Below the pieces are notes generated by a model, which saw only the letters and a program-made list of their open reading frames with translations, was not told where the DNA came from and did not search any database. 64,000 nucleotides of DNA from Fimbriimonadaceae bacterium (GTDB taxonomy: Bacteria > Armatimonadota > UBA10988): NCBI GenBank assembly GCA_020850355.1, contig JADZEX010000037.1:62001-126000 (forward strand). The letters are read 5' to 3'. The position numbers were made by a program, and so were the translations under genes. Each line of letters starts with the position of its first letter. Position 1 is the stretch's first letter. Below, piece after piece: positions 1,424-20,220 of the stretch.

Positions 1424-3666
1424 CAGCGCTCCCAGGCCTGCAGCTCGGCGCAACTGCTGAAGCTCTGCGCCGGGCGATCGCCGCTCGCCGGCACGCCGAC
1501 CACCCGCACGGCGACCAGCCGTTGCGGCGCGCAGCGGACCTCGAACGGCTGGCCAGGCGTCAGCCCGGCGGGGCTCCCGGCGGTGGTGGCCGGGTAGTCG
1601 GTGAGCTCGCCGAGCAGCAGCCAGGGCCCGCCCGGCAGCGCCTGACCCTCGACCCGCGGCGCGGAGTTGCGGCGGTCGAACCAGCCGCCGTCGTGGTAGA
1701 CCGCGCCGTGACGGAAGACGACCCGGCCGACCGTCGCGGGGGCGCGCAGTTCGACCGCGTACCAGTCGAGGTCTTGCCAACGGCCATCGAAGGTGACCCG
1801 CCACGTGTCGCCGCGCTGATCGCAGATGGATCCAGCCACATTGCCAGCGCGCGACCAGCTCTCGCGTCCGCCGCAGGTCAACGAGATCTCCGCCGCGCGT
1901 ACCGTCTCGGCGGCGGGCAGCCAGACCTGCTGCACCGCGCCGCTGCTGCCGGCCGCCGCGAACGGCCGCAGGCAGAGGCTGGCCGGGCCGGCCCAACCAG
2001 CGGGCGTCACCGCCGGCAGTTGCAGCCAGCGCTCGCCCGGCCAGGTCCGCGCCGCGGCCGGTGGCTCGACCACCGCGGCCGGGCCCTCGTCGGCGGTGAC
2101 CGCGGCGGCTGGCGGCAGGCCCGGGTTGACCGCCTCGTCGTAGGAGTAGACCAGCGGGCCGCGCCGGAACGCGGTTTGGCCGTGGTTGCCGTGCTGCCCG
2201 GCGAGCCGCTCGACGGGCAGATCCAACGCCGCCGCCAACGCGTCGCCGTCGCGCCAGACCCGCCGCAGCACCGCGTAGCCAGCTTCGGCGGCCACCTCGC
2301 ACGGCCGACCGTTGAGCAGCCAACGTGGTCGCTCGCCCGCCGGCAGCCGCACCGCCAGACTCAGTTCGAGCGGCTGCGAGACCGCCAGGCGGTAGCGCAG
2401 CGCCGGCTCGGTCGGATAGTCCGCCAACTGCTCGACCTGCACGGCGACCGCCCCAACGGTGGTTCGCAACCGGCTCGGTCCGTGGATTTGGGCGATCAGC
2501 TTGTCGCCCACCTGCCCCCAGCTCCACTGCGGCAGCCGCAGTACGGCGCGGGGGTTGCTCGAGACGCAGCAGTTGATGCCACGCCCGTAGGGCTTCGGAC
2601 CTTCCAGCGGCGTGAAGTAGCAAATCGAGCGGCCATCGGGGGTCTGCGAGCCGATCAGGTGGTTGTAGGCGAGGTTCTCCAAGGCCGCCGCGTACCGCGC
2701 CTCGCCGGTCAGTTCCAGCAGCGCCGCCGTCAACTGCGCCAGCGTCACCTGCGCGCAGTTCTCCGAGACCGCGCCGCTGTTGGGCAGGTGGTGGTCGGCC
2801 TGGAAGTGCTCCGACAGGGAGGTGCCGCCGGTGACCCAGGACTGCGTCGCCGCGATGTCGTCCCAGGCCCGGCGGCAGGCGGCCAGGTGGCGCGGCTCAC
2901 CGGTCAGACGGTACAGCTCGCTCAGGCCGACCAGGTTGCTGAGCAGTTCATAGGCCTTGGCATTGGCGGTCTGCTGCACTCGACCGTGGCCCAACAGCGA
3001 TTCCAGCAGGTGCGGGCCGTGAGGCTGGCTCCAGCCCGCCACAATCTGCTCTGCGAACAGCCGGTCGCGCGCGTCGCCGGAACACCGGTAGAGCCGCACC
3101 ACCGGTCCCAGGACACTGGTCGCAGCCATCCCAACGTGAGTCCCGCTGGCGATCAGGTCGCGCCCGCCGGGGCCGAAAGTCGTCCGGAGCAGCTCCCCAA
3201 TCCGCCGTGCGCCCTGCAGCGCCGCGCCGTCGCCGGTGGTCGTGTGGACCGCCAGCAGGCCGACCAGGCAGTACTTGTGGACCCAGACATCCCACGAGGT
3301 CCAGCGGTCGGCCGGCCGGTAGGTGCCCAGGTAACCGTCCGCTTCCTGGCAGGCCAGCAGCCCGGCGGTGACGCGCTCGAGCTTGGCCCGCAGCCGCGGG
3401 TCGCCGGTCTGCTGCCAGGCCAGACAGGCCGCGTCGAGGAACTTGCCGACGTGCTCGCCGATCCAGGCCTGCTCCCCGGGCCGCCGTCGAAAGCCAGCCA
3501 GCAGCGCGTCCTCGTCAACGTCCAGCAACCGGCCCAGCGCGGTGGCGGTGACCCGGCTGCCGAGCAGACCACCCAGCCGGACTGCCCCCGGCCCGGCCAC
3601 CGGCGCCACCGGCGCCACCGGCTCCACCAGCACGAGGCTGCCGCAGGCCATCAGGATCCAGATCAT
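1423..3666 (-). CDS. GH127 family glycosidase (beta-L-arabinofuranosidase-like, DUF1680)
   Basis: Predicted exo-glycosidase releasing beta-L-arabinofuranose or a related sugar, 747 aa. The N-terminus MIWILMACGSLVLV is hydrophobic and may be an uncharged signal or lipoprotein-like leader. An (alpha/alpha)6-barrel follows (LACQEADGYLGTY, LYRLTGEPRHL). In the GH127 enzyme HypBA1 a glutamate and three cysteines bind zinc, one of them the nucleophile. Here Glu302 and Cys304 (VSENCAQ) and Cys366-Cys367 (INCCVSSNP) fit those positions. The last ~250 residues are beta-rich and resemble an F5/8-type carbohydrate-binding module. The chosen ATG at 3666 has GGAGG upstream. It starts 91 bases from the divergent ceramidase-like gene, so the two may share a regulatory region. 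Confidence 0.85.
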   Translation of the reverse strand: MIWILMACGSLVLVEPVAPVAPVAGPGAVRLGGLLGSRVTATALGRLLDVDEDALLAGFRRRPGEQAWIGEHVGKFLDAACLAWQQTGDPRLRAKLERVTAGLLACQEADGYLGTYRPADRWTSWDVWVHKYCLVGLLAVHTTTGDGAALQGARRIGELLRTTFGPGGRDLIASGTHVGMAATSVLGPVVRLYRCSGDARDRLFAEQIVAGWSQPHGPHLLESLLGHGRVQQTANAKAYELLSNLVGLSELYRLTGEPRHLAACRRAWDDIAATQSWVTGGTSLSEHFQADHHLPNSGAVSENCAQVTLAQLTAALLELTGEARYAAALENLAYNHLIGSQTPDGRSICYFTPLEGPKPYGRGINCCVSSNPRAVLRLPQWSWGQVGDKLIAQIHGPSRLRTTVGAVAVQVEQLADYPTEPALRYRLAVSQPLELSLAVRLPAGERPRWLLNGRPCEVAAEAGYAVLRRVWRDGDALAAALDLPVERLAGQHGNHGQTAFRRGPLVYSYDEAVNPGLPPAAAVTADEGPAAVVEPPAAARTWPGERWLQLPAVTPAGWAGPASLCLRPFAAAGSSGAVQQVWLPAAETVRAAEISLTCGGRESWSRAGNVAGSICDQRGDTWRVTFDGRWQDLDWYAVELRAPATVGRVVFRHGAVYHDGGWFDRRNSAPRVEGQALPGGPWLLLGELTDYPATTAGSPAGLTPGQPFEVRCAPQRLVAVRVVGVPASGDRPAQSFSSCAELQAWER

Positions 3667-3757: not shown

Positions 3758-5065
3758 ATGCCACTGCAAGTGGGTGCCGCGCAGATCGACATCACCCCGC
3801 CGCTGGGCTGCCACCTCGACGGCAACCTCACCGACCGGGTCGCCCTCAACCTGCACGACCCGCTGTACGCCAAGGCCATCGTCTGGGAACAGGACGGCCG
3901 CCGCGTTGGCGTGGTGGTCTGCGACCTGATCATCGTGACCCGTGAAATGGCCGACGAGGTCAAGCAACGGGTCCAGGCGGCGGTCGGCCTGCCGCCCGAG
4001 GCCTTGCTGGTGACCGCCACCCACACGCATTACGGGCCGGCGGTCTACGGCGCGCTGCTGACCCGGCGTGAGGAGTCCTACGTTGCCTGGGCCCCGCCAC
4101 GGATCGCCGATGCCGTGATCCAGGCCGTGCGCAGCCTGCAGCCGGCCGAGGTCGGCTGGGCCGTCGGATCCTGCGCCAGCGAGGTCTTCAACCGCCGCTT
4201 CCGGATGCGCGACGGCAGCGTCCAGACCAACGCGGGCGTGGGCAACCCCAAAATCGTCGGCGCCAACGGCCCGGCCGACCCGACCTTCAGCCTGCTGGTC
4301 GCCCGCACGCCCGAGGGCCGACCGCTGGCCGCGCTGGGCAATCTGGCCCTGCACTACGTCGGCTCGGCCAACGACGACGTCAGCGCCGACTACTTCGGCT
4401 ATTTCGCCGCCGGCCTGCAACGCTGCGCCGGCGCGCCGTTCGTGGCTGCCCTCACCAACGGCTGCTTCGGCGACCTCAACAACATCGACGTCCGCCGCCC
4501 CCGCCGCGCGCCCCACCCGTACCACCACACCCGGCGCGTCGGCGAAGTGGTCGCCGGCGAGGCCTGGAAGCTCTGGAACACCCTCTGGGAAGAGGACTAC
4601 CACGATGATCTGCCGTTGGCCTGGGCGCTGGAGCAGGTCCCGCTGACCCCTCGCCGACCGACCGCGGCCCAACTCAGCGCCGCCCGCGACTACCTCGCCA
4701 CCGCCCGCCCGGCCGCCGACTCCTGGGCCTACGCCTACGCGCTGGATCACCTCAAGATGGTCGACCAGCCCACCCAACTCAGCCTGCCGCTGCAAGTCCT
4801 GCGGATCGGCGAGGTCGCCCTGGCCGGTCTGCCGGGCGAGGTCTTCGCGGAGGTCGGCCTGGCGCTCAAGGCCGCCTCCCCCTACCCCGTGACGATGCCC
4901 ATTGGGCTGGCCAACGACACGGTCGGCTACGTCGCCCCCGACGAGCAGTTGGCGGTCGGCGGCTACGAGTGCACCCTCTGCCGCCACGTGGTGGCCCCGC
5001 CCGGGACGGTTCAGACCTGGCTGGCCACCCACGGCCGGCTGTTGCGGCAGACCTGGGGCTGCTAA
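3758..5065 (+). CDS. Neutral/alkaline ceramidase-like hydrolase, paralog 1
   Basis: 435 aa, related to the N-terminal domain of neutral/alkaline non-lysosomal ceramidases, which cleave N-acyl-sphingosines. The sequence begins MPLQVGAAQIDITPPLGCHL. It carries the zinc-ligand-like motif TATHTHYGP and later NGCFGDLNN, both typical of the family. It is much shorter than full ceramidases (roughly 650-700 aa) and shows no signal peptide, so true ceramide cleavage is doubtful. The substrate may be another amide or a glycan-linked group. It is paralogous to the gene at 9414-10727 (shared GEAWKLWNTLWEED and SEVFNRR), with the helicase gene between them. The ATG at 3758 is preceded by GGAG. Confidence 0.82.
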   Translation: MPLQVGAAQIDITPPLGCHLDGNLTDRVALNLHDPLYAKAIVWEQDGRRVGVVVCDLIIVTREMADEVKQRVQAAVGLPPEALLVTATHTHYGPAVYGALLTRREESYVAWAPPRIADAVIQAVRSLQPAEVGWAVGSCASEVFNRRFRMRDGSVQTNAGVGNPKIVGANGPADPTFSLLVARTPEGRPLAALGNLALHYVGSANDDVSADYFGYFAAGLQRCAGAPFVAALTNGCFGDLNNIDVRRPRRAPHPYHHTRRVGEVVAGEAWKLWNTLWEEDYHDDLPLAWALEQVPLTPRRPTAAQLSAARDYLATARPAADSWAYAYALDHLKMVDQPTQLSLPLQVLRIGEVALAGLPGEVFAEVGLALKAASPYPVTMPIGLANDTVGYVAPDEQLAVGGYECTLCRHVVAPPGTVQTWLATHGRLLRQTWGC

Positions 5066-5079
5066 CTCGCCCGGCACCA

Positions 5080-5096
5080 TGGCAAGTTCATTGCAT
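5080..5096 (+). promoter_or_regulatory. Sigma-54 (-24/-12) promoter for the helicase gene
   Basis: TGGCAAG-TTCA-TTGCAT matches the RpoN consensus TGGCACG-N4-TTGCW with one mismatch (C to A). The GG and GC elements have the required 12-base register. The predicted start of transcription is near 5107. That leaves a leader of about 24 bases holding the perfect Shine-Dalgarno AAGGAGG (5117-5123) before the GTG at 5131. The local AT-rich patch stands out in this GC-rich genome. The geometry matches the site at 19481-19496. Confidence 0.68.
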
Positions 5097-5130
5097 TTGA
5101 CATTTACGGGTTGTGCAAGGAGGTTTGGCC

Positions 5131-8100
5131 GTGGGGATCTACGTCTACGTCACGGACCGCTGTCGGAAGGACGCGCAGACGCACACGCTGCAGCCGGAGC
5201 TGGCCCGGGTACGGCAGCAGGTCGAGGCACAGCAGTCGGTGAGTTTCTTCGACCGCTTCCCCTACCCGTACCTGGTCAAGAAGCAGCTTGGGGGACGCAA
5301 CCGACGGCTGCTGGCGCAGGAGTTCGCGGTCGGTGAGCACCGGGTGTTGGTGCTCTTGGCGATCCTGATTCGAGGTGGGGCTGAGTACCAGCGGTTCGCC
5401 CAGGACCCGGTCGGCTTCGGCCAGCAGCAGTTTGGCGAGCTGATCGCGCAGCTCGACCTGCCGGCTTACCTGGCGGAACGGACGCAGACGGAGCCGCTGG
5501 CCAGCCTGCCCAAGCCCAGCGCAGCCGAGTATGACGTGCTCTACTCGGCGTTCGGCCACTGGCGTGACGCTGGACAGGATGAGCTGGTCTACGATGCGGG
5601 CCCCTGGGTCGACCGGACGCGTCAGGAGCTGGTCAGCAATCAGCTCAACCGCGTCCACGCCGCGTGTTGGCGAGCTTTGGAGGCGAGCGGTGGGGTGAGC
5701 GGCCAGGTGGTTGCCGAGCGACCCGACTGGCGCGTCTGGTTCTGGCGCGGGCCGGGTCACCTGGTGCTCTTGGATGTCACCACGAGTGGCGACGCGGCCC
5801 CGAGCTGGATTGCGGGATCGCCGTTCGGCACGGCCGGCGAGTGGTCGCAGGAGCACCAGCGCTGCTGTCGCCGAGCCTATCCGTCGCTGCTGCTGTATGA
5901 CGAGGACCTCTGGATCGAAGTGCAGAAAGAGCCGTTGGGGAACATGGCGCTGTCGCCGGAAGAGACGAAGGTGCTGGAAGGGATCCGCGGCAGCGGCAGT
6001 GGCGCCTTCCCGTTGTTCATCAATGGCCGCGCCGGCAGCGGCAAGTCGACCCTGCTGCAGTACCTGTTCGCGGATCTGCTCTTCTACCACCTCTCCAAGG
6101 ACGACCCGGAGCGGCTCCAGGTGCCGCTCTACCTGACAGCCAGCTTGGACTTGCTCGAGACCGCCAAAGGTCTGGTCGAACGACTGCTGCGCAGCGAGGC
6201 CGCGTTGCGTGTGCTGGGGGAGACCCACGACCCTGGCGAGCGGCAAGCCGTGGTCCAGCAGGCCTTCCAGCCGTTCCGCCGCTTCGCGCTGAGCCTGCTG
6301 CCAGCGGATCTGCTGCCGCGCTTTGGCGGCGACGGTTATGTCAGCTACGCCACGTTTCGACGACTCTGGCAGGAGCGCTACAACCATGTCCCAGAAGCCC
6401 GGACGCGCTACGGCGCCGACCTCTGCTGGCATGTCATCCGGAGCTACATCAAGGGACTGAACGCCGAGGACTACCTCGAGCCGGATGACTACCGACTGCT
6501 GCCAGAGCAGCGCAAGTCGGTTTCCGCCGAGGACTTTGCGCTGGTCCATGAGCGGGTCTGGAGGAGCTGGTACCAGCCCCTGACCGACCAGGGGGGATGC
6601 TGGGACGACCAGGATCTGGCGCGCTGTATCCTGGCCAACGACCTGGCCCAGCCGGTCTACCCGGCGGTCGTGTGTGACGAGGCCCAGGACTTCACCAGCA
6701 TCGAACTGGAGCTGATCCTGCGCTGCAACCTGTTCTCGGCGCGGGTGTTGTCCCCCCACCAGATACCGCGGGTGCCGTTCGCGTTTGCCGGGGACCCGTT
6801 CCAGACCCTCAACCCGACGGGCTTCCGTTGGGATGCCGTCAAAGCTGCCTTCCACGAGCGCTTCATCGACGAGCTGAACCGCGCTGGCGATGCGCCGGCG
6901 CTCGGCCTGAACTGCTGCGAGCTGGAGTACAACTACCGCTCCAGCGGACCCATTGTCCACCTTGGCAACTGGGTGCAGGCGCTCCGGGTGGCGCTGCTCG
7001 ACGACCCCGACGCCCGGCCCCAGAGGCCCTGGTCCGACGATCAGGCGGCCGCGCTGGTGGTCTGGTACAGCGCCGACGACCCACAGTTTTGGCGGGCGTT
7101 CGAGGAGCAGAGCGAGCTGGTCGTGATCGTGCCGTGCGGCGAGGGCGAAGAAGCCGACTATGTCGCCAACGACCCGCTGCTGAGCCGCCACATCGGCATC
7201 GAGAACGGCGTGCCCCTACGGGTCCTGAGCGCCGCTCGAGCCAAGGGTTGCGAGTACCCGGCCGTGCTGGTCTACGGCTTCGGCAGCGAGTCGCCAGTCG
7301 ATGTGCTGGCGGCGCTCGAAACCGAGGGCGTCGCCGCGGCCGGCGCCCCGCAACTGCCGTTGCAGTACTTCCTGAACCGGCTCTACGTCGCCGTCAGCCG
7401 CGCCAAACGGCGGTTGGTGGTGGTGGACAGTGGCCGCGGCCTGGAGCGGCTGTGGGCGGTCAGCCAGCGGGTCCGAGTGGACCAGCAGATCCTCCGGCGG
7501 ATCGGCCACGCCGCCGACCGCTGGGAGTCGTCGATGGCCTGCCTGACAGCCGGCCTACCAGACCAGCTCGGCGGCGATGTGGCCGGCGACCCGCAGGAGA
7601 ACGCCCGCAGCTTCGAGAGCGAGGGCGATCAGCGGCAGGACAGCTACCTGCTGCGCCAGGCAGCCGCGCTCTACCGCCGGGCAGGCAACGAGCTGAAGCA
7701 CCTCGAATGCGATGCCAAGGCGCTGGAGTACGACGGCAAGTACCTCGCCGCAGCGCCGGTCTACCAGCAGGCCCGGCACGATGGCGAGGCCATTCGCTGT
7801 TACTGGTTGGCCGGCCCGGAAGGCTGGCCGATCCTGGCCGCGCAAGGCTACCCGCCGCATCTGCCCTACCCGGACGAACGCCGCTGGGCCCACACCGTCG
7901 CCGTCGGCGCCAGCGACCAGGCCGCCACCGCCCTGGTCGAAGCGCTGGCGGCGCGCGCGGCGCAGGGCCTGACCCCGGATGAGTCGATCTGGTACCGCAC
8001 CTGGAGCCAGGCCCTGGCGGCGATCCTGGACGGCCGCGCGACGGTCGGGCAGATCGCGGATCGCTCGTTGGTCCGGCGTCTCGCCGGCGCCTTCGACCAG

Positions 8101-9414
8101 CTCGCGGCCGGCCGCCTGAAACTGCCCGACGGCGCCGCCGGAGCGGTCTATTACGACGCTGAGCGCTACCGGCAGGCGGTGCGCCACTGGGACCGGCTGC
8201 CTGCCAGAGACCGTCCGGAGGCCTACCAGATCGCCCAGGCCCAGCTCGCCGACTACCCCGCCAGCCTGCTGGCCTGGCAGCGCTGCAAGCGACCGGACCA
8301 GATGCTGCAGGTCTACCGCGAGCACCTCCAACTGGCGCTTGGCGTGACGGAAGCAGTACCGGTGCTGGAGGCCCTGCTGGCGGAGGGGACGCAGCTCGGG
8401 CAAGCCTACCGGCTCGCCTGGAACACGACCGGGTCGAGCCTGCTCCTGATCCTGCTCCAGCACCTCGTGGAGCGCGGCCGTCCGGAAGCGGCAGGCGTCC
8501 TGGAGGCCTTGGTCTACCGTCTGGTGGAAGTGGGCGACTTCGACCGGCTCCAAGCCGTCACCAGACCGCGGGGGTCCTTCGCCCCGGCCACGGACTTCGA
8601 GCGCGGCAGCCTGGCGACGTGGATCGCCGAACAACGCCTGTGCATCCAGAGTGCGCTGATCCGGGCGCTGGCGCGGTCAGAGCGGTTTGCCGAGATGGAC
8701 AGCGCGCGGCAGCAGGAGTTCGGCGCCTACCTCAACGAGCACCTGCGGGTGACGGAGTGGGAACGCTGGGCCCGCCATGTGACGATCCCCGAGGCCGGCG
8801 CCGCCATCGAGCGAGCTGGCAAGTTCACGGACTCGCTCAGCTTCTACGCCGCCGTGCTGCGGGACGACAACCTGGTTGACCACCACCGCCTGGCCCGGGA
8901 GCGGATGTGGCAGACCAAGCGCCGCCAGGTCGAGTATGAAAAGCGCCCCGGATCCGATCCAGGTCGCCTGCAGCGCGCCGAACGCGAGTTGCGGCAGCTC
9001 GACGCCGAGTTCTCGCCTCGGGAACGCGAGGCGATCCCGACCTACCCGGCGCTGCCACGCCTCGCCAACCCGTCGCTGCCGACTCTCGATCCAGCCCCCT
9101 TGGCGGCCGCCGCGTCGCCGTTTGAGAGCAGCCCCGTCGACCCCCAGTGGCTCCCGGACCGCCGTCGGCTCAATCTGCGCCACAGCGAGACCGGCGACAC
9201 CATCAGCGTGCGGCTCGCCGAGCGCATCTGCCAGGCTGACGTGGAGTTGGCTGTCGTCGGGCCGCTGCGGTGGGACTGCGCCGAGTGGGGTCTGCGCATC
9301 GAGCTGCTCGAGACGGCTGAGCAGGTGTTTGGCGTTGCCGTCACAATCTCCGATCAGCGGGCCGAGTTCCGGCTGCCCGAGGCCGACCCGCGCACCGCCG
9401 CAGGAGCCTCGTGA
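5131..9414 (+). CDS. UvrD-like superfamily 1 helicase with novel N-terminal region and C-terminal alpha-solenoid
   Basis: 1427-aa predicted SF1 helicase/translocase. A GTG start at 5131 is chosen because AAGGAGG lies 7 bases upstream; the in-frame GTG at 5113 precedes that site. Motifs: Walker A GRAGSGKST (Lys305), Walker B VVCDEAQD (Asp516, Glu517), AGDPFQT (Gln558), EYNYRSSG (Arg603) and motif VI YVAVSRAKRRL (Arg757). Residues 1-290 precede the motor. Within them, a stretch with KKQLGGRNRRLL and AILIRGGAEYQRF resembles RelE/ParE-type toxin folds, which is inference. Residues ~770-1427 are helical and repeat-like (ALEYDGKYLAAAPVYQQA), as in TRANK1-type SF1 proteins. The stop overlaps the next start as TGATG. 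Function unknown; defence, RNA surveillance or stress response are all possible. Confidence 0.85.
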   Translation: MGIYVYVTDRCRKDAQTHTLQPELARVRQQVEAQQSVSFFDRFPYPYLVKKQLGGRNRRLLAQEFAVGEHRVLVLLAILIRGGAEYQRFAQDPVGFGQQQFGELIAQLDLPAYLAERTQTEPLASLPKPSAAEYDVLYSAFGHWRDAGQDELVYDAGPWVDRTRQELVSNQLNRVHAACWRALEASGGVSGQVVAERPDWRVWFWRGPGHLVLLDVTTSGDAAPSWIAGSPFGTAGEWSQEHQRCCRRAYPSLLLYDEDLWIEVQKEPLGNMALSPEETKVLEGIRGSGSGAFPLFINGRAGSGKSTLLQYLFADLLFYHLSKDDPERLQVPLYLTASLDLLETAKGLVERLLRSEAALRVLGETHDPGERQAVVQQAFQPFRRFALSLLPADLLPRFGGDGYVSYATFRRLWQERYNHVPEARTRYGADLCWHVIRSYIKGLNAEDYLEPDDYRLLPEQRKSVSAEDFALVHERVWRSWYQPLTDQGGCWDDQDLARCILANDLAQPVYPAVVCDEAQDFTSIELELILRCNLFSARVLSPHQIPRVPFAFAGDPFQTLNPTGFRWDAVKAAFHERFIDELNRAGDAPALGLNCCELEYNYRSSGPIVHLGNWVQALRVALLDDPDARPQRPWSDDQAAALVVWYSADDPQFWRAFEEQSELVVIVPCGEGEEADYVANDPLLSRHIGIENGVPLRVLSAARAKGCEYPAVLVYGFGSESPVDVLAALETEGVAAAGAPQLPLQYFLNRLYVAVSRAKRRLVVVDSGRGLERLWAVSQRVRVDQQILRRIGHAADRWESSMACLTAGLPDQLGGDVAGDPQENARSFESEGDQRQDSYLLRQAAALYRRAGNELKHLECDAKALEYDGKYLAAAPVYQQARHDGEAIRCYWLAGPEGWPILAAQGYPPHLPYPDERRWAHTVAVGASDQAATALVEALAARAAQGLTPDESIWYRTWSQALAAILDGRATVGQIADRSLVRRLAGAFDQLAAGRLKLPDGAAGAVYYDAERYRQAVRHWDRLPARDRPEAYQIAQAQLADYPASLLAWQRCKRPDQMLQVYREHLQLALGVTEAVPVLEALLAEGTQLGQAYRLAWNTTGSSLLLILLQHLVERGRPEAAGVLEALVYRLVEVGDFDRLQAVTRPRGSFAPATDFERGSLATWIAEQRLCIQSALIRALARSERFAEMDSARQQEFGAYLNEHLRVTEWERWARHVTIPEAGAAIERAGKFTDSLSFYAAVLRDDNLVDHHRLARERMWQTKRRQVEYEKRPGSDPGRLQRAERELRQLDAEFSPREREAIPTYPALPRLANPSLPTLDPAPLAAAASPFESSPVDPQWLPDRRRLNLRHSETGDTISVRLAERICQADVELAVVGPLRWDCAEWGLRIELLETAEQVFGVAVTISDQRAEFRLPEADPRTAAGAS

Positions 9415-10727
9415 TGCCCCTCCACGCCGGTACCGCCGAAGTTGCGATCACCCCGCCGCTGGGGACCGACTTGCAGGGCTACCTGACCCCGCGCGCGGCC
9501 GAGCGGGTGCATGACGATCTACGGGCCAAGGCGCTGGTGCTGGACGATGGGCAGCAGCGGGTGGCGCTGGTGGTCTGTGATCTGATTGCCGTGACCGCAG
9601 CGCTGACGGAGCCGGTGCGGGCGCGGGTGGCGGCGGAGGCCGGGGTGCCACCGGCCGGACTGCTGGTGAGCGCCACGCACACACACTTCGGGCCGAGCAC
9701 CATGAACATCGCGGCGACCGATCCGGCGGCCGGCTACCTGGCGGAGTTGCCGCAGCGGATTGGCGATGCCGTGGTGCTGGCGGCGCAGCGGCTGCGGCCG
9801 GCGCAGCTCGGGGTCGCCGTGGGAGCCTGCCCCAGCGAGGTCTTCAACCGGCGCTACCACCTGACCGACGGCCGCGTGGTCTTCAATCCGGGGTACCAGA
9901 GCCCGTTGATCGACCGGGTGGCGGGGCCGACTGATCCGACCTTCACGCTGCTGGCGGTGCGGTCGGCCGAGGGCGAACCGCTGGCGGCCTTCGCCAATCT
10001 GGCCTTGCACTACGTCGGGGCGCCGGCGCTGGATATCACCGCCGACTACTTCGGCGCATTTGCCGGCGCGTTGCAGCGCTGCGCGGGGGCGCCGCTGACC
10101 GTGCTGCTGTCCAACGGCTGTCAGGGCGACCTCAACAACTGCAACTTCGGTCGCCCGGCGCCGCGGCGGCGGCACGCCTACCACGCCATCGAGCGCGTCG
10201 CCAACGTCGCGGCCGGCGAGGCCTGGAAGCTCTGGAACACGCTCTGGGAAGAGGACTTCCGCGACGACCTGACGTTGGCCGCCGCCACCGCCACGGTGAC
10301 GGTGCAGCCGCGGCGCCCGAGTGCGGCGCAGGTGGCCGCGGCGCGCGACTACCTGGCGCGGCCGGCCGCCGAGCAGGAGACCTGGCCGGCGGTCTACGCC
10401 CGCGAGCACCTGGCGATGGCCGAGCCGAGCTGGCCGCAGGAGATCCCGTTCTTGTTGCAGGCGTTGCGGCTGGGCGAGGTGGGGCTCTGTGGGATCCCGG
10501 CCGAGCCGTTCTGCGAGATCGGCCTGGCGCTGCGCGAGCGGTCGCCGCTGCAGCCGGTAGTGCCGGTCGGCCTGGCCAACGACATGGTCGGCTACCTGCC
10601 GACTGCCCGGCACTACGAGCTGGGCGGCTATGAGACCGACCTCTGCCGCTGGGCCTACGCCCCCCGTGGCACCGCCGAGGCGTGGGTCGACCAGCTCGTC
10701 GCCCTGCTGGGTCAGGTGGCGGTCTGA
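9414..10727 (+). CDS. Neutral/alkaline ceramidase-like hydrolase, paralog 2
   Basis: 437-aa paralog of the protein at 3758-5065 and almost the same length. It shares the start (MPLHAGTAEVAITPPLG), the zinc-ligand-like SATHTHFGP, NGCQGDLNN, and AGEAWKLWNTLWEEDF. No signal peptide is visible. The ATG at 9414 overlaps the helicase stop (TGATG) and has AGGAG 7 bases upstream. A GTG at 9411 is also possible but sits too close to that site. Coupling means that any transcript from the sigma-54 promoter at 5080 also reads this gene. The tail converges with the PhnP-like gene, with 16 bases of overlap. Substrate unknown; ceramidase-like by family only. Confidence 0.82.
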   Translation: MPLHAGTAEVAITPPLGTDLQGYLTPRAAERVHDDLRAKALVLDDGQQRVALVVCDLIAVTAALTEPVRARVAAEAGVPPAGLLVSATHTHFGPSTMNIAATDPAAGYLAELPQRIGDAVVLAAQRLRPAQLGVAVGACPSEVFNRRYHLTDGRVVFNPGYQSPLIDRVAGPTDPTFTLLAVRSAEGEPLAAFANLALHYVGAPALDITADYFGAFAGALQRCAGAPLTVLLSNGCQGDLNNCNFGRPAPRRRHAYHAIERVANVAAGEAWKLWNTLWEEDFRDDLTLAAATATVTVQPRRPSAAQVAAARDYLARPAAEQETWPAVYAREHLAMAEPSWPQEIPFLLQALRLGEVGLCGIPAEPFCEIGLALRERSPLQPVVPVGLANDMVGYLPTARHYELGGYETDLCRWAYAPRGTAEAWVDQLVALLGQVAV

Positions 10728-19480: not shown

Positions 19481-19496
19481 TGGCACGGCATTTGCA
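19481..19496 (+). promoter_or_regulatory. Sigma-54 (-24/-12) promoter for the PEP-CTERM gene
   Basis: TGGCACG-GCAT-TTGCA is a perfect match to the RpoN consensus TGGCACG-N4-TTGCW with correct 12-base register. Predicted transcription start is near 19507. The 24-base leader contains GGCGGAGG before the ATG at 19531. In Proteobacteria, PEP-CTERM genes are known to be driven by RpoN with the PrsK/PrsR system, so the position upstream of a PEP-CTERM gene fits known biology. Confidence 0.8.
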
Positions 19497-19530: not shown

Positions 19531-20220
19531 ATGCGGCGAGTGCTTTGGATGGTGGTGGTGCTGGTCCCCGGTCTGGTGCAGGCTGGTCCGGTGGTCAATG
19601 GCAACTTCGAGACCGGCAGCCTGAACCCGTGGGTCGGCAGCACCGACCCAGCGGCGTTGCGCGACCCGAAGGTCACCAACGGCGCGGCCGGCGGCGGCAT
19701 CAACGGGATCAGCGGCAGCAAGTACGACGACTTCGCGGTGCTCGACACGACCGACCCATCCGGCAACATCTCCGGCCAGACCTGGTGGTCCAGCATCACG
19801 CAGACCGGCGTCACGCTCGGCGGCGTCACCGGCACGCTGCAGTTCAAGCTCACCGACCCGAGCGACCCAACGGTGCCGACCGGCAACCAGTCGGGGCTGC
19901 TGCTTGACAACATCCGGGTGGTCAACAACAACAGCCTGGCCTGGGACTGGTACGCGCTGACCAAGAAGGACCAGGCGCGCAACGACTACTACCAGGTGCT
20001 GTTCAACCACCAGGAGCTGTTCCGCTTCAACTACACCAGCTCGTTGATGCCGACCGGCAACTACGGCGGCGGCGGCGGCACCAACTTTGGGCCGTTCAGT
20101 TACGGCACCTGCTGGCAGAGCAGCACCGTCACGGTGCCGCCGGTGCCGGAGCCGGCCACCTGGATGCTGCTCGGCCTGGCCCTGCTGCCGGTGGCTCGCG
20201 CCCGGCGCCGCCGCCGCTAG
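19531..20220 (+). CDS. PEP-CTERM sorted surface protein
   Basis: 229 aa. A signal peptide (MRRVLWMVVVLVPGLVQAGP) is followed by a secreted domain opening VVNGNFETGSLNPWVG, which resembles carbohydrate-binding or choice-of-anchor domains. The body ends in a glycine run and then the sorting tail: VPEPATW, a hydrophobic helix and RARRRRR. Exosortase would cleave at the PEP motif and anchor the protein at the envelope. No exosortase gene is in the window. The gene has its own sigma-54 promoter and a strong terminator hairpin, so it is a single-gene transcription unit. Role is probably in matrix or surface display; ligand unknown. Confidence 0.93.
   Translation: MRRVLWMVVVLVPGLVQAGPVVNGNFETGSLNPWVGSTDPAALRDPKVTNGAAGGGINGISGSKYDDFAVLDTTDPSGNISGQTWWSSITQTGVTLGGVTGTLQFKLTDPSDPTVPTGNQSGLLLDNIRVVNNNSLAWDWYALTKKDQARNDYYQVLFNHQELFRFNYTSSLMPTGNYGGGGGTNFGPFSYGTCWQSSTVTVPPVPEPATWMLLGLALLPVARARRRRR

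Follow-up and report, generated by a model that had tools for sequence, protein, structure and literature searches.

Sigma-54 keeps its promoters very tightly off. Among described systems, NtrC-type sigma-54 promoters such as that of the PEP-CTERM gene pepA, which is under RpoN1, are close to the locus described here; RpoN-dependent transcription of PEP-CTERM genes is documented in Aquincola (PMC9850573). The candidate promoter of an SF1 helicase gene in an Armatimonadota genome, located in a window of 64,000 nucleotides (the whole stretch of DNA that was analysed, to which positions refer unless a locus is named), is like them in its -24/-12 element and in the kind of activator encoded, and the same element also precedes PEP-CTERM genes in this genome. 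It differs in that the target is an SF1 helicase and the element carries one mismatch. The RtcR-controlled rtcBA operon shares a sigma-54 promoter placed before a nucleic-acid enzyme, but the genome studied here lacks RtcR, an activator with a CARF-like domain, and has no linked RNA ligase; its RtcB is encoded on a separate contig (C97) and its activators are of the phospho-receiver type. The N terminus of the helicase resembles RelE, YoeB and HigB toxins and Cami1 in its predicted fold and, it seems, in the arrangement of its conserved basic residues and tyrosine, whereas the domain here forms one protein with a helicase and a helical scaffold, without an antitoxin gene or a CARF domain. UvrD/Rep-type SF1 helicases share the Walker A, Walker B and UvrD_C_2 motifs with the gene product, which differs in its weak profile scores and its extra N- and C-terminal domains.

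The -24/-12 element and its genomic calibration

Positions 5080-5095 probably form a functional sigma-54 (RpoN) promoter that would make the helicase conditional on a phosphorylation-gated NtrC-type activator (Table 1). Compared with TGGCACG-N4-TTGCW, the element has a single mismatch, C to A at position 6, and an exact GG-GC spacing of 10 bp, and it lies in the gap before the helicase gene and is oriented towards it. Taking C5094 as -12 places the predicted +1 at A5106, a purine, and gives a short leader of 25 nt before a GTG start that agrees with homologues. Since the upstream ceramidase-like gene A ends at 5065, core promoter and leader fit within the 65-bp gap. The genome has ~71% GC and this spacer 54%, a value as low as which is reached by only 2.3% of intergenic windows of 65 bp. 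The sequence-only reading had described a one-mismatch RpoN match with exact spacing, a local AT-rich patch and a leader with a perfect AAGGAGG, all of which are borne out; its central claim, that the SF1 helicase gene is under a sigma-54 promoter, is probably correct, being in line with the sequence anatomy, with the genome statistics and with a gene set that includes RpoN and NtrC-type activators. Among the points against a sigma-54 promoter are a TTGACA hexamer lacking a -10 partner at 5097-5102, just upstream of the predicted start, and the fact that no inverted repeat stands out as an activator-binding site in the preceding 160 bp, a stretch that is mostly coding. No sigma-70-type promoter was matched in 4900-5200.

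Table 1 Features of the helicase locus, in window coordinates.
Feature	Position	Strand	Remarks
Ceramidase-like gene A, upstream neighbour	3758..5065	+	PF04734
Sigma-54 -24/-12 element (candidate), TGGCAAG-TTCA-TTGCA	5080..5095	+	GG = -25/-24, GC = -13/-12; next base T
Predicted transcription start, A	5106	+	Inference: C5094 = -12, +1 lies 12 nt downstream
Shine-Dalgarno sequence AAGGAGG, perfect	5117..5123	+	7 nt before GTG 5131; read from sequence
SF1 (UvrD-like) helicase gene, 1427 aa, GTG start	5131..9414	+	
Predicted N-terminal RelE/YoeB/HigB-like domain, aa 1-90	5131..5400	+	AlphaFold, Foldseek, conservation
Walker A GRAGSGK, aa 299-305	6025..6045	+	Invariant in alignment of homologues
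Walker B DEAQD, aa 516-520	6676..6690	+	Invariant in alignment of homologues
SF1 C-terminal motif LNRLYVAVSRAK, aa 748-759	7372..7407	+	UvrD_C_2
C-terminal helical (TPR-like) solenoid, ~aa 820-1301, then small beta domain, ~aa 1346-1408	7588..9351	+	AlphaFold, mean pLDDT 76
Ceramidase-like gene B, downstream neighbour	9414..10727	+	PF04734; translationally overlapped with helicase

Genome statistics rest on ~0.8 Mb of the genome and on pattern searches of the whole 6.67-Mb assembly (G000). A scan of the window allowing two mismatches was uninformative (10 matches found, 11.7 expected), and with one mismatch allowed the whole genome holds 53 sites compared with 37 for the reversed pattern. Genes were called around 50 of the 53 sites with at most one mismatch, and nearly all sites in gaps are oriented towards the next gene. 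Within the ~0.8 Mb, five sites with no more than one mismatch fall in gaps and all five point at a gene, compared with an expectation of 0.26 sites so oriented when the consensus is permuted 200 times; one of the five comes from a stretch chosen for its already-known site, so the fair count is four. Shuffling the 65-bp spacer yields a site with at most one mismatch at an indicative p = 4e-4. The narrower pattern TGGCANG-N4-TTGCA occurs 10 times in 6.67 Mb, the helicase site included, and its reversed control not at all; 9/10 of these sites, again including that of the helicase, lie in gaps and are correctly oriented at the next gene, gaps making up ~6% of the DNA. Mismatches at position 6 account for 5 of 7 well-placed one-mismatch sites compared with ~2 of 38 others (Fisher p = 3e-4, likewise indicative). 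For one-mismatch sites only, scaling of the permutation result attributes ~2 of 7 genome-wide to chance, so the class is not clean. All site counts depend on a simple gene caller and on subclasses picked after the data had been viewed, and the p-values are to be read as indicative; for example, one site (L016) lay inside a gene by the first calls and in a gap after the gene caller was retrained. Placement and orientation are informative and the two-mismatch count is not; by this calibration, a chance origin of the 5080-5095 element is unlikely.

Sigma-54 machinery and other candidate targets

The genome encodes a complete RpoN (L001), with AID, CBD and DBD and an NCBIfam rpoN_sigma match above cut-off, and three NtrC-type activators, each with REC, AAA+ and Fis-type domains. 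The sigma-54-contacting loop reads GAFTGA in L008 and GSFTGA in L010, which shares a contig with the helicase at a distance of ~185 kb; in L009 (gene 1066-2418) GAYTDA replaces GAFTGA, so that this protein may be unable to open sigma-54 complexes. Given RpoN and these three activators, the element is best read as a sigma-54 promoter gated by a phosphorelay, and the phospho-receiver domains of the activators suggest that the signal, if the promoter is used, would most likely come from a histidine kinase. We found no report of sigma-54 in Armatimonadota in the literature searched, which is not proof of absence. A second RpoN-like protein (L002, G000:C62:64565-67915, gene 1435-2835, minus strand) has an unfamiliar N terminus and only its DNA-binding domain is recognised; the profile part that it matches (16-147) is also matched in four genomes of the same family and order (G001, G002, G003 and G004).

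Genes behind the other sites include those for two PEP-CTERM proteins, an exopolysaccharide glycosyltransferase, NrfH and a PAS/histidine-kinase-like protein. PEP-CTERM and exopolysaccharide genes belong to classes for which control by RpoN is known or predicted; part of the target list thus looks coherent, with the helicase as the odd one out. One perfect sigma-54 site, TGGCACGGCATTTGCA, lies in the window itself at 19481-19496, 34 bp before a PEP-CTERM gene (19531-20220). TAGC/GCTA words occur within ~25 bp upstream of the element at 5 of the 10 other sites (L014, L015, L017, L018 and L036). With the helicase site included (6/11), such words are more frequent near sigma-54 sites than in gaps generally (p ~2e-4 for a pattern picked post hoc), and they are perhaps an activator-binding word.

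The helicase protein, its family and its locus

The SF1 motifs of the helicase are invariant among three Armatimonadota homologues. In the AlphaFold model, residues 1-90 have a pLDDT of 93-98 and the order beta-alpha-alpha-beta strands-alpha. The best Foldseek matches of the N terminus are RelE2, RelE1, YoeB, Cami1 (a CRISPR-linked RelE ribonuclease) and HigB2, with E ~2e-3 to 2e-2, probabilities up to 1.00 and, for the single-domain toxins, TM-scores by target length of ~0.5-0.7. That the E-values stay modest, with a best value of 1.8e-3, reflects a match that covers only ~90 of 292 residues. Homologues keep residues K50, R59, R81 and Y86 with few or no exceptions, and this set may be the counterpart of K54, R61, R81 and Y87 of E. 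coli RelE. Sequence profiles gave no Pfam match for aa 1-279 and no PDB sequence match. The N terminus is predicted to have a RelE/YoeB/Cami1-like fold, and no other independent hint points as well to an action of the helicase on RNA or the ribosome. This domain, which the sequence-only reading had missed, is in our view a more interesting finding than the promoter. No antitoxin gene is adjacent, the neighbours being ceramidase-like, and the helicase gene matched no PADLOC model. No report of a RelE-SF1 helicase fusion was found in the literature searched, which is likewise not proof of absence. A more distant relative (L006 259-1968, G021:C14) is a UvrD-like helicase with, by eye, a RelE-like N terminus; a stop breaks its frame, and the sequence immediately downstream encodes TPR-like repeats.

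Searches with the single protein returned no relatives, whereas an alignment query returned 138 public-genome stretches encoding relatives, from which 80 loci were kept. The family (~1430 aa) is patchily distributed, with full-length homologues in many phyla, including Planctomycetota, Acidobacteriota, Verrucomicrobiota, Pseudomonadota, Cyanobacteria and Bacteroidota. It is rare in its own phylum (6/291 genomes, the present one included), and the helicase was not found in three genomes of the same family and one of the same order. Sites of the -24/-12 type upstream of 81 distant homologues showed no excess over shuffles or the reverse strand, and the homologues among them in the same-phylum genomes G039, G013, G177 and G213 likewise lack the element upstream. 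None of the 81 is a close homologue, identity to the helicase being at most ~40-44%, so this absence shows that the link is not general and not that it is false here; judged by sequence, the sigma-54/helicase link would be confined to this genome, the family as a whole lacking it. No widespread partner gene was detected among ORFs of at least 80 aa at homologue loci, where neighbour clusters are small (2-6 loci) and many are among related Cyanobacteria. No phage relatives were matched, and plasmid matches were weak only. In G039, the gene just before that of the helicase (L004 484-1452, G039:C167) encodes a protein with a zinc finger (zf-HC2) and a zinc ribbon, and 46 bp separate the two genes.

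The helicase gene is a single-gene cassette between two ceramidase-like paralogues, and its stop codon overlaps the start of gene B as TGATG. Homologues of A and B adjoin on one contig in a family relative (G002), without the helicase. With a GC3 at the 8th percentile, the helicase gene is mildly low in this measure. Most simply, helicase and leader would have entered as a unit, loss in G002 being the alternative.

Alternative readings and proposed action

That the 5080-5095 match arose by chance in a spacer of low GC content, with the gene read from the transcript of ceramidase-like gene A or from a non-consensus sigma-70 promoter, is unlikely. The missing conservation upstream of homologues, the short spacer within a co-directional gene row and the TTGACA hexamer would all fit it; the permutation controls, the 9/10 placement of the motif and the lack of any sigma-70-type match speak against it. 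Should the promoter be real, the helicase might belong to a sigma-54 regulon of PEP-CTERM and exopolysaccharide genes, switched on, for example, at surface attachment. This variant is possible but doubtful: the best other sites precede such genes, a PEP-CTERM gene with a perfect site is 14 kb away and activators are few enough in this genome that they are probably shared, but the paired TAGC/GCTA words are missing at the helicase save for one GCTA at the gene A stop codon, and no functional link connects such genes with the helicase. A damage-sensing circuit like that of RtcR is highly improbable. Sigma-54 control and a RelE-like domain would suit an RNA-damage theme and RtcB is present in the genome, but RtcR is absent, no activator gene adjoins the helicase and the three activators are phospho-receiver types. 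The likeness to RtcR-controlled RNA repair drawn in the sequence-only reading falls on the same grounds, RtcB lying on a contig other than that of the helicase. PF06956, the RtcR profile, was absent from this genome and present in the E. coli control of the same search, and the RtcR link was rejected.

What the protein does invites a further reading, in which it is a solitary, horizontally acquired defence gene whose RelE-like effector is coupled to a helicase sensor. This is plausible without being probable. The family is patchy across phyla and absent from the three same-family genomes and the one same-order genome, and here its one member is flanked by two paralogues that adjoin each other in a relative, with a predicted RelE fold and no conserved neighbours; against this stand the lack of a PADLOC model, of defence-gene neighbours at this locus and of phage relatives, and the weakness of the plasmid matches. 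A combined view, in which the antitoxin-free RelE-helicase is a transcriptionally restrained stress or defence enzyme that targets ribosomes or mRNA, with sigma-54 silence replacing the antitoxin, is quite improbable.

Under the preferred reading of a phosphorelay-gated sigma-54 promoter, a partner kinase would phosphorylate an NtrC-type activator, which would open the promoter so that the helicase is made on demand. The action proposed for the protein is tentative and much less certain than the promoter. The RelE-like domain may bring the helicase to ribosomes or mRNA, where it would either dock at the ribosomal A site or cleave the message, and the ATPase may remodel the complex; the helicase, induced by a two-component signal, would have as its substrate stalled ribosomes, mRNA or some other complex of nucleic acid and protein. 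If the promoter is used, a RelE-like SF1 helicase is made only on the command of an AAA+ activator, which offers a direct handle on when a widespread but patchy, uncharacterised helicase family is needed, and in this Armatimonadota genome a nucleic-acid enzyme joins surface, polysaccharide and nitrite-reduction genes among the candidates for sigma-54 control. Such tight silencing could also be a sensible hold on a potentially toxic RelE domain that has no antitoxin. The overlapping stop and start codons would place ceramidase-like gene B under the same conditional control as the helicase. Ceramidase-like (PF04734-type) paralogues are numerous in this genome (16 matches in G000) and in its relatives.
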